Assembly (NCBI GenBank): GCA_026989015.1
Contig: JALSKD010000007.1
Coordinates: 1 to 34,591 of the forward strand
Reading direction: 5' to 3'
DNA: 34,591 bases
Source of the DNA: Gammaproteobacteria bacterium
Lineage (GTDB): Bacteria; Pseudomonadota; Gammaproteobacteria; GCA-001735895
Positions 1,623 through 9,080 of the stretch are shown here, piece by piece. The notes beneath the pieces were generated by a model, which was given only the letters and a program-made list of their open reading frames with translations, was not told the DNA's origin and did no database searches. Position 1 is the first letter of the stretch, and the number at the start of each line of letters is the position of its first letter. Position numbers and translations under genes: made by a program.

Positions 1623-2315
1623 ATGAAATTCAACATCTACCGCTACAACCCGGAAACCGACAAGAAACCCTGGATCCAGAGCTACGAGCTGGATGTGCCG
1701 AAGGAAACCATGTTGCTCGAAGCCCTGTTGCAGATCCACCGGCAGGACCCGACGCTGGGGTTCCGCAAGTCCTGTCGCGAGGGCGTCTGCGGCTCCGACG
1801 GCATGAACGTCAATGGGGTCAACCGCCTGGCCTGCGTCACCCCGCTGTCGGAGCTGAAGGAGCCGATCGAGATCCGCCCGCTGCCCGGTCTGGCGGTGAT
1901 CCGCGATCTGATCGTGGACATGGAGCAGTTCTATACCCAGTACCGCACCGTCAAGCCCTATCTGGTTGGCGCCGAGCCGGAACCCGAGGTCGAACGCCTG
2001 CAGACGCCAGAGCAGCGCGACCGCCTCGACGGCCTCTACGAATGCATTCTCTGTGGTTGCTGCTCCACCGCCTGTCCGTCCTTCTGGTGGAACCCGGACA
2101 AGTTCCTCGGCCCCGCCGCGTTGCTGCAGGCCGCCCGCTTCATCGAGGACAGCCGTGACGAGGCGACGGTGGAACGGCTGGAACAGCTGGATGACGCCTA
2201 CAAGCTCTACCGCTGCCACAGCATCATGAACTGCGTGCAGGTCTGTCCCAAGGACCTCAACCCCACCCGCGCCATCGGCAAGATCAAGGAACGCATGGTG
2301 CAGAAGAAGCTGTGA
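1623..2315 (+). CDS. sdhB: Succinate dehydrogenase iron-sulfur subunit
   Basis: Electron-transfer subunit of complex II carrying three Fe-S clusters from SdhA-FAD to quinone. The 230-residue length is normal. The N-terminal ferredoxin-like domain has the [2Fe-2S] ligands in CREGVCGSDGMNVNGVNRLAC-type order (only the pattern is cited). The C-terminal domain has CILCGCCSTACP for the [4Fe-4S] cluster and CHSIMNCVQVCPKDLNP for [3Fe-4S]/[4Fe-4S] ligands. The ATG follows the sdhA stop by two bases, and the end overlaps sdhE by four bases (GTGA), which implies translational coupling. The membrane anchors SdhC and SdhD are not in view and presumably lie upstream of sdhA. Confidence 0.97.
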   Translation: MKFNIYRYNPETDKKPWIQSYELDVPKETMLLEALLQIHRQDPTLGFRKSCREGVCGSDGMNVNGVNRLACVTPLSELKEPIEIRPLPGLAVIRDLIVDMEQFYTQYRTVKPYLVGAEPEPEVERLQTPEQRDRLDGLYECILCGCCSTACPSFWWNPDKFLGPAALLQAARFIEDSRDEATVERLEQLDDAYKLYRCHSIMNCVQVCPKDLNPTRAIGKIKERMVQKKL

Positions 2316-2584
2316 GCGCAGAAGGGGACAGCGAAGTCACGCTGGCGGAGCTGCAATGGCGCTGCCGGCGCGGCATGCTGGAACTGGACGTGTTTCTGCA
2401 GCGCTTTTTGCAGCAGGGGTATGGCCAACTCGATGCCGCCCAGCGGGCCAGTTTTTTCGAGCTCCTCGACTACCCGGACCAGGAACTGCTTGAACTGCTG
2501 CTCGGGCAGATCCACGCCCTCGATCCGGCCCACAACGCACTGGCCGAACGCATCCGCGCCAGCGCGCGCGACGCCGCCGGATAA
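2312..2584 (+). CDS. sdhE: SdhE, FAD assembly factor for succinate dehydrogenase
   Basis: Small (90 residue) soluble protein of the SdhE/YgfY/Sdh5 family, which promotes covalent flavinylation of SdhA. The hallmark RGxxE motif is present as RRGMLE, about residues 20-25, followed by the helical core with FFELLDYPDQELL typical of the family. It begins with a GTG that overlaps the sdhB stop in a GTGA junction, so it is translationally coupled to the enzyme it matures. In E. coli sdhE sits with ygfX away from sdh; here it is directly attached to sdhAB, which fits its role. In E. coli the same family was also named CptB as partner of the CptA/YgfX protein; a CptA-like gene lies two genes downstream. 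Confidence 0.93.
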   Translation: MSAEGDSEVTLAELQWRCRRGMLELDVFLQRFLQQGYGQLDAAQRASFFELLDYPDQELLELLLGQIHALDPAHNALAERIRASARDAAG

Positions 2585-2602: not shown

Positions 2603-2638
2603 CTGAGTCGCCGGCCGCATGCTGCTACAATCGGCCCA
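2603..2638 (+). promoter_or_regulatory. Candidate promoter placing transcription start at the ATG of the radical SAM gene
   Basis: A TACAAT hexamer at 2626-2631 is preceded, 17 bases upstream, by CTGAGT at 2603-2608 (3 of 6 matches to the sigma70 -35). Only six bases separate the -10 from the ATG at 2638, so a normally spaced start site (+7) would fall on the A of the start codon, giving a leaderless mRNA. No purine-rich ribosome-binding sequence lies just upstream of the ATG, consistent with that. This is inference from sequence only; read-through from sdhE is also possible. Confidence 0.5.
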
Positions 2639-4353
2639 TGAACGCCCGCGCCGATACCGTTTCCGACGAGCTTGAGCAGCAGCGTCTGAGGCCGCTGTAC
2701 CTGGCGGCGATGCGCCAGCGCTTCAAGAATCTGATCAACCGCCTGACTTCCGGTGGCGATATGCACCGCCAACTGGGCGATCACCCCGAGGCGGTGGACC
2801 TGGCCTTTCTGATGAGCTATGTCCAGGCCTGGCACTGGCTGCGCCTGCAGCTCAATGACGACTGGCGCGGGCCGATGCTCGACGCCTTCAAGGGCTCCGC
2901 GCGCGCCTTCCTGATGGAACTGCTGGAACACAGCGACAGCCCCGAAGCCTTCATCCGGGGCTATATCGACTTCTGGCGCGCCAGCCCGCCACCGGGACCG
3001 GTACAGCGCCAGCAACTGATGCGCCTGCTGGATGCACGCGGCGGCGATGCCGAACGGCTGGTGGAAGACATCATGGCAGTGTGGCGCGGCATGAATGTCT
3101 ACCCCGCGCCCGACAAGCAACTCTATGTGGAAATTGCCCGCGACGAGCGCAATCGCTACGACGCCATGCTCGGTCCCGAGGACCGCGAACGGCTGGCGCT
3201 GGTAGATGCCTTGCCCGATACCGATGACCGTCCACCGCGCTTCGCCAAACTGGGAATGATTCCGCACATGGGCTGTCCGCAGACCTGCCGCCACTGCATG
3301 TTCATCTTCCGTCCCTTCGTAAAGGGCAAGGAACGGGCCGGTGAAATCTACGAGCTGGCGGACGGGCTGACGGACAGCCTGCTGTTCACCGGCGGCGATC
3401 TGACCCGTCACATGGAACATTTCTACCGCGCCATCCGCGAGATGAAGCACATCCGCAACTTCGCCATTCTGCTCAATGGCGATTTTGCCGACAGCCCCAA
3501 GGCCGTGCGTGAACTGCTCGGCGAAATGGAACGCGCCCTGGGCGCACGCCCGGCCGGCTGGCCGCAGGCGGGCGTGTTGCTGCAGATCAGCTTCGACGAG
3601 TTCCATCAGGAAGTGATGCTCGACAAGCACGGCCGCCTCAAGGAACGGATTCCGGTAGAAAAAATCGCCAACATCGTCGAACAGGCGCCCAAATTCCCCA
3701 AAATACAGCTGGCGCTGCTGCACAAGCAGAACGCCCTCAATTTCTCCATGGACCTGTTCCAGAAGGGCGTGTTTGGCCGCCTGGCGGCCGAACTGGGTGC
3801 GCGAGGGCATCAGGTCCGCGTGTTGTCCTCGGCGCCCGCCGAGCGGCAGAAGGCACACCCGCTGACCGGCGAGCACGGTCAGGTAGTCAAGGACGCCACC
3901 TTTGTGCTGGCCAAATACCCGGATTCCCCGATTCTGCTGACCAGCTCCACCATCGATAGCTACGGCCGCGCCGAACTGCTGGAGCCCGGCGAAGCGGTTC
4001 AGGAACGGGACTACCTGATGCAGGTGCTGGAGCGCGGCCGCTCACCTGGCGAAGGCTTCGATACCGACCTGATGTTCTGGTTCAACGGCTGGGCGACCCT
4101 GTTCTCGGCGGTGCATGTCTGCCTGGGCAATGTCTATGACGAGGGCGCGGATACCGTGCTGGCTCGGCAGCGCAAGGACCCATTGAGCCGGGCGCTGGCC
4201 GATTTCGATACCCGGCTGCTCGAATTCTATGCGGAACGCCGGGACGATCTGCCTCGGCGCATCGAACGGGCTTCCAGTCCGCACCAGCTGTTCCACGCCA
4301 TCACCGAAGACGCTGCGATGCGCCTGCACATGACGCAGCGCCTGCTCGATTGA
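2638..4353 (+). CDS. Radical SAM protein of unknown function
   Basis: A 571-residue protein with the radical SAM [4Fe-4S] cysteine motif CxxxCxxC at C213, C217 and C220 (CPQTCRHC), followed by FTGGDL, a plausible variant of the SAM-binding GGE motif. About 200 residues precede the motif and look all-helical, without a recognised domain. The C-terminal part has FNGWATLFSAVHVC and GNVYDEGADTVLARQR; the latter resembles the end of SPASM-type domains, but only one cysteine is there, so an auxiliary cluster is unlikely. The substrate cannot be named. The gene sits between sdhE and a cptA-like gene with its own apparent promoter, and the isc operon follows a little downstream. It should need Fe-S assembly and reducing equivalents. 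Family membership is firm; function is open. Confidence 0.85.
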   Translation: MNARADTVSDELEQQRLRPLYLAAMRQRFKNLINRLTSGGDMHRQLGDHPEAVDLAFLMSYVQAWHWLRLQLNDDWRGPMLDAFKGSARAFLMELLEHSDSPEAFIRGYIDFWRASPPPGPVQRQQLMRLLDARGGDAERLVEDIMAVWRGMNVYPAPDKQLYVEIARDERNRYDAMLGPEDRERLALVDALPDTDDRPPRFAKLGMIPHMGCPQTCRHCMFIFRPFVKGKERAGEIYELADGLTDSLLFTGGDLTRHMEHFYRAIREMKHIRNFAILLNGDFADSPKAVRELLGEMERALGARPAGWPQAGVLLQISFDEFHQEVMLDKHGRLKERIPVEKIANIVEQAPKFPKIQLALLHKQNALNFSMDLFQKGVFGRLAAELGARGHQVRVLSSAPAERQKAHPLTGEHGQVVKDATFVLAKYPDSPILLTSSTIDSYGRAELLEPGEAVQERDYLMQVLERGRSPGEGFDTDLMFWFNGWATLFSAVHVCLGNVYDEGADTVLARQRKDPLSRALADFDTRLLEFYAERRDDLPRRIERASSPHQLFHAITEDAAMRLHMTQRLLD

Positions 4354-4360
4354 ACCGGCC

Positions 4361-4804
4361 TTGGGCGACTGCCGCGACGATCGTCCATTCCGTCTGCGCC
4401 CCTCGGCCAGCCTCACCCGCATCGAATACGCCGCCCTGGGGCTGATGGCGACCGTGCCGGCCCTGGCCTGGCCGTCGGGTTTCGGACCGGCGATGGCGTT
4501 GCTCATCCTGCTGCTGGCCTTGCGCTGGCGGCTGCAGGGCCAATTGCTGCTGCCGCACCGCTTCAGGGGACAGCTGAAACTGGCGGACCAGCCACCGCGC
4601 CTGATCTGCTATGCTTGTCTGTTCGGGGACGGGGAGGGCGCATGGCCGCTGGCGTCGTGCCGGATGTACCGCTCCCGCTATTTTCTGCTGATCCGCCGCC
4701 GCCATGAGGCGCTGCTGCTGGTGGCCGACCGTTTCGACTCGGCGGCCGAACACGCCCGTTTCCGCCGACGGCTGTTTGAACTGATGGAGAACCATGCTCG
4801 CTGA
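4361..4804 (+). CDS. YgfX/CptA-like inner-membrane protein
   Basis: A 147-residue protein with a short basic N-terminus, two closely spaced hydrophobic segments (about residues 22-37 and 40-52) and a soluble C-terminal domain ending in a LLVADRFDSAAEHARFRRRL-like pattern. This architecture and the ending match the YgfX/CptA family, whose E. coli member is encoded next to sdhE (ygfY/cptB) and has been described both as a toxin-like inhibitor of cytoskeletal proteins and as an SdhE-interacting membrane protein. The start used is TTG, 7 bases after the previous stop; an in-frame ATG at 4445 would cut into the first membrane segment and is less likely. It overlaps the next gene by 11 bases. Assignment rests on architecture and context, not on an alignment. 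Confidence 0.7.
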   Translation: MGDCRDDRPFRLRPSASLTRIEYAALGLMATVPALAWPSGFGPAMALLILLLALRWRLQGQLLLPHRFRGQLKLADQPPRLICYACLFGDGEGAWPLASCRMYRSRYFLLIRRRHEALLLVADRFDSAAEHARFRRRLFELMENHAR

Positions 4805-5261
4805 TACCGAATCCGTCCGCTGTGGCCAGATCGTCACCCCGCGCAGCTTTGCCGGGCTGATGGAGCTGTACGAGCAGAACTACCTGCGCCTGCGGCGCAT
4901 CGCCCCGGATCTGGACTTTGCCGACGAGATGATCTCCATCGCCCCCGGCCATCTGGATCTCTACCTGTCGGTCGTGGAACGCTGCAAATACACCACCTTT
5001 CTGCGCATGACCTACCGGTTCCGTCATCAGGACCGGCTCATCTGCGAACCCGATCTGCACCTGCGCATCTACCACGATGCCCGCACCGCCGAGGCTCAGG
5101 ACCGTCTCGACCGCCAGCATCACCGCATCCGCAACGGAGAGACACTCGAAGAGAAGTGGCGTCTCAACCGCTTTCTGTACAAGTGGCTGGGCTTCTCGTT
5201 GCACCAGGGCCACCGATTCGAACCCATCGCCGGGCTGAAAAAAACCGTGAATCAGGATTAA
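4794..5261 (+). CDS. DUF1249 family protein (YqiB-like)
   Basis: A 155-residue soluble protein matching the DUF1249/YqiB family as I recall it: an N-terminal FAGLMELYEQNYLRLRR block, a central VVERCKYTTFLRMTY strand region, LRIYHDARTAEA, and a C-terminal EEKWRLNRFLYKWLGF helix. Function is unknown. In enterobacteria yqiB is linked to nudF and cpdA; here it overlaps the end of the cptA-like gene by 11 bases and is the last gene before the isc regulatory region. No signal peptide or membrane segment is seen. Confidence 0.8.
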   Translation: MLADTESVRCGQIVTPRSFAGLMELYEQNYLRLRRIAPDLDFADEMISIAPGHLDLYLSVVERCKYTTFLRMTYRFRHQDRLICEPDLHLRIYHDARTAEAQDRLDRQHHRIRNGETLEEKWRLNRFLYKWLGFSLHQGHRFEPIAGLKKTVNQD

Positions 5262-7850: not shown

Positions 7851-9080
7851 CTACATGTAGCCGTCGGTCAGTGTCTTCAGGAACGCTTCGAGATCGGTGA
7901 TTTCCTGGTCGCTCAGACCCAGTGCCGGGTTGAGGTTTGGGTCACCAAAATTCAGCTCGGCAGCGATGTTGCTGTCGATTTCCGGATAATCCTTGGCCGG
8001 TGTGAAACCGGCCTCGGCGCTGGAAACCGTGATGTCATAATGCAGAATGACCTCGCGCAATGTCTGGTAGCGCCCGTTGTGCATGTAGGGCGCGGTCAGT
8101 TCTACATTGCGCAGGGTCGGCACGCGGAACTTGCCGCGCTCGCCCTGGTAATCGCTGTCCGAGAAGATGGCCGCATACTGGCCGCCGTTGTTCTCCAGGC
8201 TTTCACCCAGCCCTCCGTCACGAAAGGCGGCGCCCGCCGGGTTGTCCGGGTTCGGCGGCGTGCCGATGTTGTAGTACTTGAAGTTGGTGAACAGTACCTT
8301 GTTGCCGAATTCCGGGTTGGCCTCGAGGCTGTGACAATTGTTGCATTTGCCCTTGTTCTGGAACACCAGCATTCCATTGGCTTCGGACGGCGTCATGGTA
8401 TAGCTGCCCGCCAGCCAGGCATCGAACTTGGACGAGAAGGGACTGACGGTGGAGGATTTCTCGAATTCGGCGATGGCCTCGGCGATCTTGTCATAGACCT
8501 CATCGGTGGGCCGGGTGAAGATGTCGTCTCCGAACACTTCCTTGAAATGCTCCGCATGCATGCCGTTTCTGACCTTGCTGACCACATCCGCGGGGTCCGT
8601 GTTGTTCATTTCCACCGGATTCAGGAAGGGGTCCTTGGCCTGTTCCTTGAGGCTCGGCCGGCGGCCATCGAGAAACTGCCCGCCCTCAAACTTGGCAGTC
8701 GTTTCCGGTGAAGCGCCAAAGCTGGTTGCTGCGCGGAACGGAGGGATGAAGGCCGCATAGGCCGCCGTCGGCGCGTTGCGGTTGCCGAATGCGCCGCTGA
8801 CCGAGCCTTCCGACACCGGTGCCGTGCTGCTGACATCCGGATCCGCGAAGCCGTGATCCGGTGCATGACAGCTGGCGCAGGCCTGGTTGCCTTCGCTGGA
8901 CAGGCTTTGGTCCATGAACAGCATCATGCCCAGCCGCTCCTTGGTGATGCCGCTGCCGCCACCGCCGTTTGAGCCGCCGTTGTTGTTGGAGCCGCCGTTG
9001 TCGTCACTGCTGCCGCCGCCACAGGCGGCCAGCGAAAGTGTCAGGATGCCGGCGATTGCGATGGAGCGTCGGTGTTTCAT
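7851..9080 (-). CDS. Diheme cytochrome c peroxidase (CcpA/MauG family) lipoprotein
   Basis: A 409-residue exported protein. The signal peptide ends in a lipobox LAAC with the lipidated cysteine at C20, followed by a Gly/Ser/Asn-rich linker (residues 21-43) that would tether the domain to a membrane. Two c-type heme sites, CASCH (C68, C71, H72) and CNNCH (C246, C249, H250), have the spacing of the bacterial diheme peroxidase/MauG family. Other family blocks are FLNPVEM, FRVPTLRNVELTAPYMHNGRY and the C-terminal LSDQEITDLEAFLKTLT. It may reduce peroxide or oxidise an unknown partner in the periplasm. No mau or maturation gene is adjacent. Anchoring as a lipoprotein is somewhat unusual for CcpA, which is usually soluble. 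Confidence 0.92.
   Translation of the reverse strand: MKHRRSIAIAGILTLSLAACGGGSSDDNGGSNNNGGSNGGGGSGITKERLGMMLFMDQSLSSEGNQACASCHAPDHGFADPDVSSTAPVSEGSVSGAFGNRNAPTAAYAAFIPPFRAATSFGASPETTAKFEGGQFLDGRRPSLKEQAKDPFLNPVEMNNTDPADVVSKVRNGMHAEHFKEVFGDDIFTRPTDEVYDKIAEAIAEFEKSSTVSPFSSKFDAWLAGSYTMTPSEANGMLVFQNKGKCNNCHSLEANPEFGNKVLFTNFKYYNIGTPPNPDNPAGAAFRDGGLGESLENNGGQYAAIFSDSDYQGERGKFRVPTLRNVELTAPYMHNGRYQTLREVILHYDITVSSAEAGFTPAKDYPEIDSNIAAELNFGDPNLNPALGLSDQEITDLEAFLKTLTDGYM

Follow-up and report, generated by a model that had tools for sequence, protein, structure and literature searches.

A member of an unnamed radical SAM protein family with an EpeE-like predicted fold, encoded between sdhE and cptA in a gammaproteobacterial genome

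Introduction

The locus studied here raises the question of why a radical SAM gene stands between sdhE and cptA and whether its product serves either neighbor. The window (the whole stretch of 34,591 nucleotides that was analyzed) carries this gene with gaps of 53 bp to sdhE and 7 bp to cptA, and cptA is followed by DUF1249 and then by iscR, iscS, and iscU, the isc genes being assigned by sequence (Table 1). The original prediction had been that an uncharacterized radical SAM enzyme is encoded between sdhE and cptA, and this was borne out by the open reading frame, its CxxxCxxC motif, and its orthologues. A first look found orthologues in 5 of 56 other genomes, one of these being cut off by the end of its contig. 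The species genome set contained 40 orthologous loci, full-length and with 50 to 70% identity, which rules out a chance open reading frame.

Table 1. Features of the radical SAM gene and its surroundings, in window positions
Feature	Position	Strand	Remarks
sdhE (FAD assembly factor), upstream neighbor	2312..2584	+	Pfam Sdh5, 70 bits
TACAAT, -10-like element with TG extension	2626..2631	+	Ends 6 nt upstream of the ATG; may be a near-leaderless promoter of the gene itself
Radical SAM protein, 571 aa	2638..4353	+	ATG start; open reading frame between sdhE and cptA
Domains of the radical SAM protein			Helical N-domain, residues 4-190; EpeE-like barrel, ~205-437; degenerate SPASM-like tail and C-terminal helices, ~457-571
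Radical SAM motif CxxxCxxC, CPQTCRHC (C213/C217/C220)	3274..3297	+	Cysteines invariant in 42 and conserved in 75 sequences
SPASM-like strand, codons 477-499, DLMFWFNGWATLFSAVHVCLGNV	4066..4134	+	EpeE alignment by eye; model pLDDT <50 at 479-492
CptA/YgfX-like small membrane protein, downstream neighbor	4361..4804	+	Weak match, 14 bits against a 27-bit cutoff
DUF1249 gene	4794..5261		Between cptA and iscR
Lipoprotein-like cytochrome c peroxidase-type protein with CxxCH motifs	7851..9080	-	Downstream of iscU, convergent

Results and Discussion

Domain organization and predicted fold

The AlphaFold model of the window protein (pLDDT of 82.6, pTM of 0.81) contained ten helices up to residue 190 and was of low confidence in the cluster loop (residues 210 to 231) and at residues 479 to 492. 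The N-domain was also all helical when modeled alone. The helical N-domain and SPASM-like tail had been read from the sequence beforehand; the model agreed on the N-terminal ~190 residues, and the tail was found to hold no conserved cysteine. The peptide-binding (RRE) or B12 domain for which a search had been proposed was found neither by Pfam, in which no PqqD-like RRE or B12-binding family matched, nor by structure prediction, as the fold of the N-domain matched no PDB entry at an E value of ≤0.001.

When the whole model was compared with the PDB by the use of Foldseek, EpeE chains alone were matched at an E value of ≤0.001 (eight chains, E values of 3e-6 to 2.4e-5, TM scores of 0.61 to 0.65 by target), and viperin came next at 3e-3. 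Judged from its invariant motif, the modeled barrel strands, and the fold match to EpeE, the window protein belongs to the radical SAM superfamily. Its score against Pfam Radical_SAM (PF04055) was 22.2 bits, below the 29.5 cutoff, and that profile was matched in 38 of 39 family members. The family is unnamed in every library searched: the window protein matched no curated family and had no significant sequence match in the PDB, and a literature search found no paper on the family. In its layout (D...G...lGNv), the C-terminal strand is similar to that of SPASM/twitch enzymes (anSME, AlbA, and others), but the window protein has none of their cluster-binding cysteines.

Comparison with EpeE

EpeE (YydG; TIGR04078; PDB 8AI1-8AI6) shares with the window protein the fold, the radical SAM core, an ISxDExH stretch, and an aspartate at the probable place of EpeE D210. 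HMMER aligned the ISYDEYH of EpeE to the conserved ISFDEFH of the window protein. Residues of EpeE were numbered with the D210A entry of the PDB alignment as the reference point and a construct offset of 25; by that numbering, Cys223 is the second cysteine of YPCC and D210 lies within GYDIVYHHDGE. When DLMFWFNGWATLFS of the window protein was aligned with EpeE by eye, D477 fell on D210 and F489/S490 fell on Cys222/Cys223, and D477 is probably the equivalent of D210. Four residues (D320, H323, D477, and G484) were invariant in all 75 family sequences and F489 was found in 74, while position 490, the place of Cys223, was occupied by S, N, G, or A and never by C. No conserved cysteine was found outside CxxxCxxC among these 75 sequences; C495 was present in 49 of them and was W, T, S, or A in the other 26. 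In the alignment of 42 gammaproteobacterial members, C495 was present in 38. Likewise, the cysteines of an auxiliary [4Fe-4S] or SPASM cluster were absent from the family in the alignments of 42 and of 75 sequences.

In EpeE, Cys223 is the hydrogen donor, and the C-terminal cluster helps to regenerate it (PMC8326336, PMC5682303). Since both the auxiliary-cluster cysteines and this donor are missing, the window protein is no epimerase of the EpeE type in its known form; for all the likeness in fold, the mechanism established for EpeE cannot hold here without change. The window protein further differs from EpeE in that it has no precursor-peptide operon, carries the additional N-domain of ~190 residues, and scores far below the TIGR04078 cutoff (24.3 bits versus 300), the same profile giving weak matches in 32 of 39 family members. 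In a core-profile control, several EpeE-like and ArsS-like proteins reached up to 11 bits, compared to about 3 bits or less for the other radical SAM proteins of the window genome, which is a weak signal. Full-length alignments to EpeE relatives by hhalign were weak, though EpeE-specific.

These comparisons bear on the possibility that the protein is a peptide or protein epimerase, or some other EpeE/YydG-like peptide maturase, that acts on an unlinked substrate with a different hydrogen donor such as C495. We regard this as doubtful. EpeE being the sole fold match, the ISFDEFH alignment, the position of D477, and the frequency of C495 in Gammaproteobacteria are all in keeping with it, but C495 is replaced in 26 of the 75 members of the wider family, the YydG score is low, and the RRE-type domain, Cys223, and the cluster cysteines are absent. 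Moreover, no recurrent precursor peptide, exporter, or protease was seen beside the gene, and no small open reading frame within 2 kb of it was common across clades, those that are conserved being clade limited.

A RiPP cassette was rejected after a small-ORF search that gave a 29-aa membrane peptide and, in another clade, a ~60-aa membrane protein, neither of which was general. The former is a hydrophobic peptide (MQHIDIDEFLMGLSA...) encoded ~55 to 60 bp upstream of the radical SAM gene at three loci of one clade (L007:842-928, L009:1080-1166, and L010:1556-1642) and absent from L008; its open reading frame is preceded, at some distance, by a GGCTCA-N5-TGAGCC-like palindrome. The latter is conserved in the cysQ/yrfG clade at 0.2 to 4 kb from the radical SAM gene (L036:11358-11537, L033:6440-6613, L043:11062-11241, and L044:9904-10080).

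A glycosyltransferase partner in another class

When the whole phylum was searched, strong homologues turned up in 33 genomes from outside Gammaproteobacteria; these homologues were 34 to 45% identical to the window protein and formed one clade (FastTree support of 1.0). The class concerned is presumably Magnetococcia, as one locus looks like that of Magnetococcus marinus MC-1. At most of 26 loci of this class, an slt-ftsY-(thioredoxin-like) block was divergent to a glycosyltransferase gene that was followed by the radical SAM gene. The glycosyltransferase gene was upstream of the radical SAM gene at 23 of these loci, directly adjacent at 18 (mostly with overlapping open reading frames) and close at 5 more. 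All four of the glycosyltransferases tested scored above the cutoff of TIGR04283 (193 to 209 versus 182 bits), which is annotated as an arsenosugar biosynthesis glycosyltransferase, and they have a C-terminal extension of ~120 residues in a form found in that class alone. Two families of the class also encode, just downstream of the radical SAM gene, a 62-aa protein of no Pfam family (L118:9687-9875, with relatives in L116, L119, L125, L131, L132, L148, and L149).

ArsS, the radical SAM enzyme of the arsenosugar route, adenosylates arsenic (PMC12159101). What recalls ArsS (TIGR04167) is that, in the other class that carries the family, the radical SAM gene is coupled to one for a TIGR04283 glycosyltransferase; unlike the case of ArsS, the partner there is extended and the window gene has no adjoining partner. 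TIGR04167 matched neither the window protein nor the alignment members. The window genome itself carries a bona fide ArsS (451 bits) paired with a TIGR04283 glycosyltransferase on contig 44 (L102:1426-3147), with a DsrE-like open reading frame beside them, and its TIGR04283 gene belongs to this pair.

None of the gammaproteobacterial loci examined had a glycosyltransferase gene beside the radical SAM gene. Ordinary TIGR04283 genes are nearly general in Gammaproteobacteria and occur at about the same frequency whether or not the radical SAM gene is present, and co-occurrence there was discarded as an uninformative signal. Four near-complete genomes of Gammaproteobacteria with the radical SAM gene (G189, G290, G743, and G746) had no match of TIGR04283 strength, so that the partner is not obligatory there. 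For the window, the pairing with a glycosyltransferase is therefore a lead, taken from the other class.

Proposed function

From the computed motif, fold match, cysteine losses, and neighborhoods, we infer a chemistry and a substrate that we put forward tentatively, with somewhat less than an even chance of being right: the unnamed family, mobile in Gammaproteobacteria, would subject a metabolite of glycosylated or nucleoside type to a radical step, with neither an auxiliary cluster nor a thiol donor. The core would bind one [4Fe-4S] cluster and SAM and generate a 5'-deoxyadenosyl radical, which would abstract a hydrogen atom from the substrate or add to it. The substrate may sit in an EpeE-like cleft with the barrel on one side and the degenerate SPASM strand on the other, at D320, H323, D477, and neighboring residues. 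With no auxiliary cluster and no conserved thiol to donate hydrogen, the family must resolve the product radical another way, and this could occur by the return of hydrogen from 5'-deoxyadenosine, by internal bond formation, or by the addition of an adenosyl group, as ArsS does. A sugar- or nucleoside-bearing metabolite is the most likely substrate because the gene of the other class is coupled to the TIGR04283 glycosyltransferase. A narrower version is rather improbable but would amount to new chemistry, namely, that an EpeE-like enzyme without cluster or thiol rearranges or adenosylates a sugar-bearing metabolite of a TIGR04283 route, parallel to and distinct from the ArsS arsenosugar route, in sulfur-oxidizing and (probably) magnetotactic bacteria.

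If the proposal of a radical step on such a metabolite is right, a radical SAM family that extends over two bacterial classes would use an EpeE-like scaffold without the parts with which EpeE finishes its reaction. The glycosyltransferase and radical SAM pair of the locus that looks like M. marinus MC-1 would then be a concrete start for a metabolite search, and a role of the window locus in SDH or isc function would be closed as an explanation.

Distribution among sulfur oxidizers

In an even sample of the class Gammaproteobacteria, the radical SAM gene was found in 10 of 370 genomes; in two families it was found in 21 of 54 and 12 of 40 genomes. The sulfur oxidation gene dsrA was present in 9 of the 10 positive genomes versus 112 of the 360 negative genomes (Fisher P = 2.5e-4), in a sample that is phylogenetically clustered in four dsrA-positive families. 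In the tenth positive genome, the hit is a fragment of 62 residues where a contig ends. The window genome carries dsrA, and the named records of the family are from Gammaproteobacteria, several of them labeled Sedimenticola, Thiolapillus, or Chromatiaceae. The best reading of this distribution is that the family occurs mainly in sulfur-oxidizing bacteria, and probably also in magnetotactic cocci, and has spread horizontally among the sulfur oxidizers that are dsrA positive. The same association and the same names could also mean that what the enzyme modifies belongs to dissimilatory sulfur oxidation or is another Fe-S or respiratory protein of sulfur oxidizers, but only 9 of ~121 dsrA-positive genomes have the gene, the sample is clustered as noted, and no dsr, sdh, or isc gene recurs beside it, which makes such a role unlikely. 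Candidate origins in phages or plasmids were dropped, with no relatives found in IMG/VR contigs or PLSDB, as was a defense role, with no notable match to PADLOC or PHROG families.

Position between sdhE and cptA

In the ~40 gammaproteobacterial relatives, the radical SAM gene adjoins unrelated genes (rdgC and, by sequence, dnaE, a MOSC protein gene, galE/cysQ/yrfG, and others), and each recurring set of neighbors is confined to a single gene-tree clade. The cysQ/yrfG genes were rejected as partners, their neighborhood being one clade and thus inheritance rather than recurrence. The sdhE/cptA/isc site was found in the window's genus alone, that is, in the window and, on the 3' side, in a genus-mate (G001, L006) in which the 3' end of the radical SAM gene is followed by cptA-DUF1249-iscR. 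In a genome of the same family without the radical SAM gene (G009, L086), sdhB-sdhE-cptA-DUF1249-iscR is unbroken, with a gap of 20 bp between sdhE and cptA; the order from sdhE to iscR is also partly seen in G010 (L084). Three genomes of one genus (G004, G006, and G008) had radical SAM genes in three distant clades, which, with MAG contamination as a caveat, indicates horizontal transfer.

The intact sdhE-cptA block in the sister genome, together with the scattered sites, makes a late insertion the simplest account of the window position. The best explanation is that in Gammaproteobacteria this is a stand-alone, horizontally moving gene that in the window fell between sdhE and cptA. Accidental insertion, which the original prediction had allowed as its alternative, was thus upheld, and the respiratory or Fe-S link that it had suggested was not supported, with the arrangement limited to one genus, the other sites unrelated, and the site empty in L086. 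Homologues scattered with no shared neighborhood, which were to count against that prediction, were what we found in Gammaproteobacteria but not in the other class, where the glycosyltransferase partner is conserved. That the protein serves SdhE, CptA, SDH flavinylation, or isc, as the short gaps and the partial arrangement in the genus-mate might suggest, is very improbable given that single genus, the intact sister block, and the rarity of the gene compared to sdhE and isc, which are general in Gammaproteobacteria.

A possible promoter

No consensus -35 element or full sigma-70 match was found before the start of the radical SAM gene in the window. The -10-like element just before the ATG suggests that the gene may have its own, near-leaderless promoter. 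Such a hexamer was found 3 to 13 nt before the start in 24 of 40 family members, compared to 52 of 234 control genes taken from those loci (P = 4e-6, a value inflated by relatedness).
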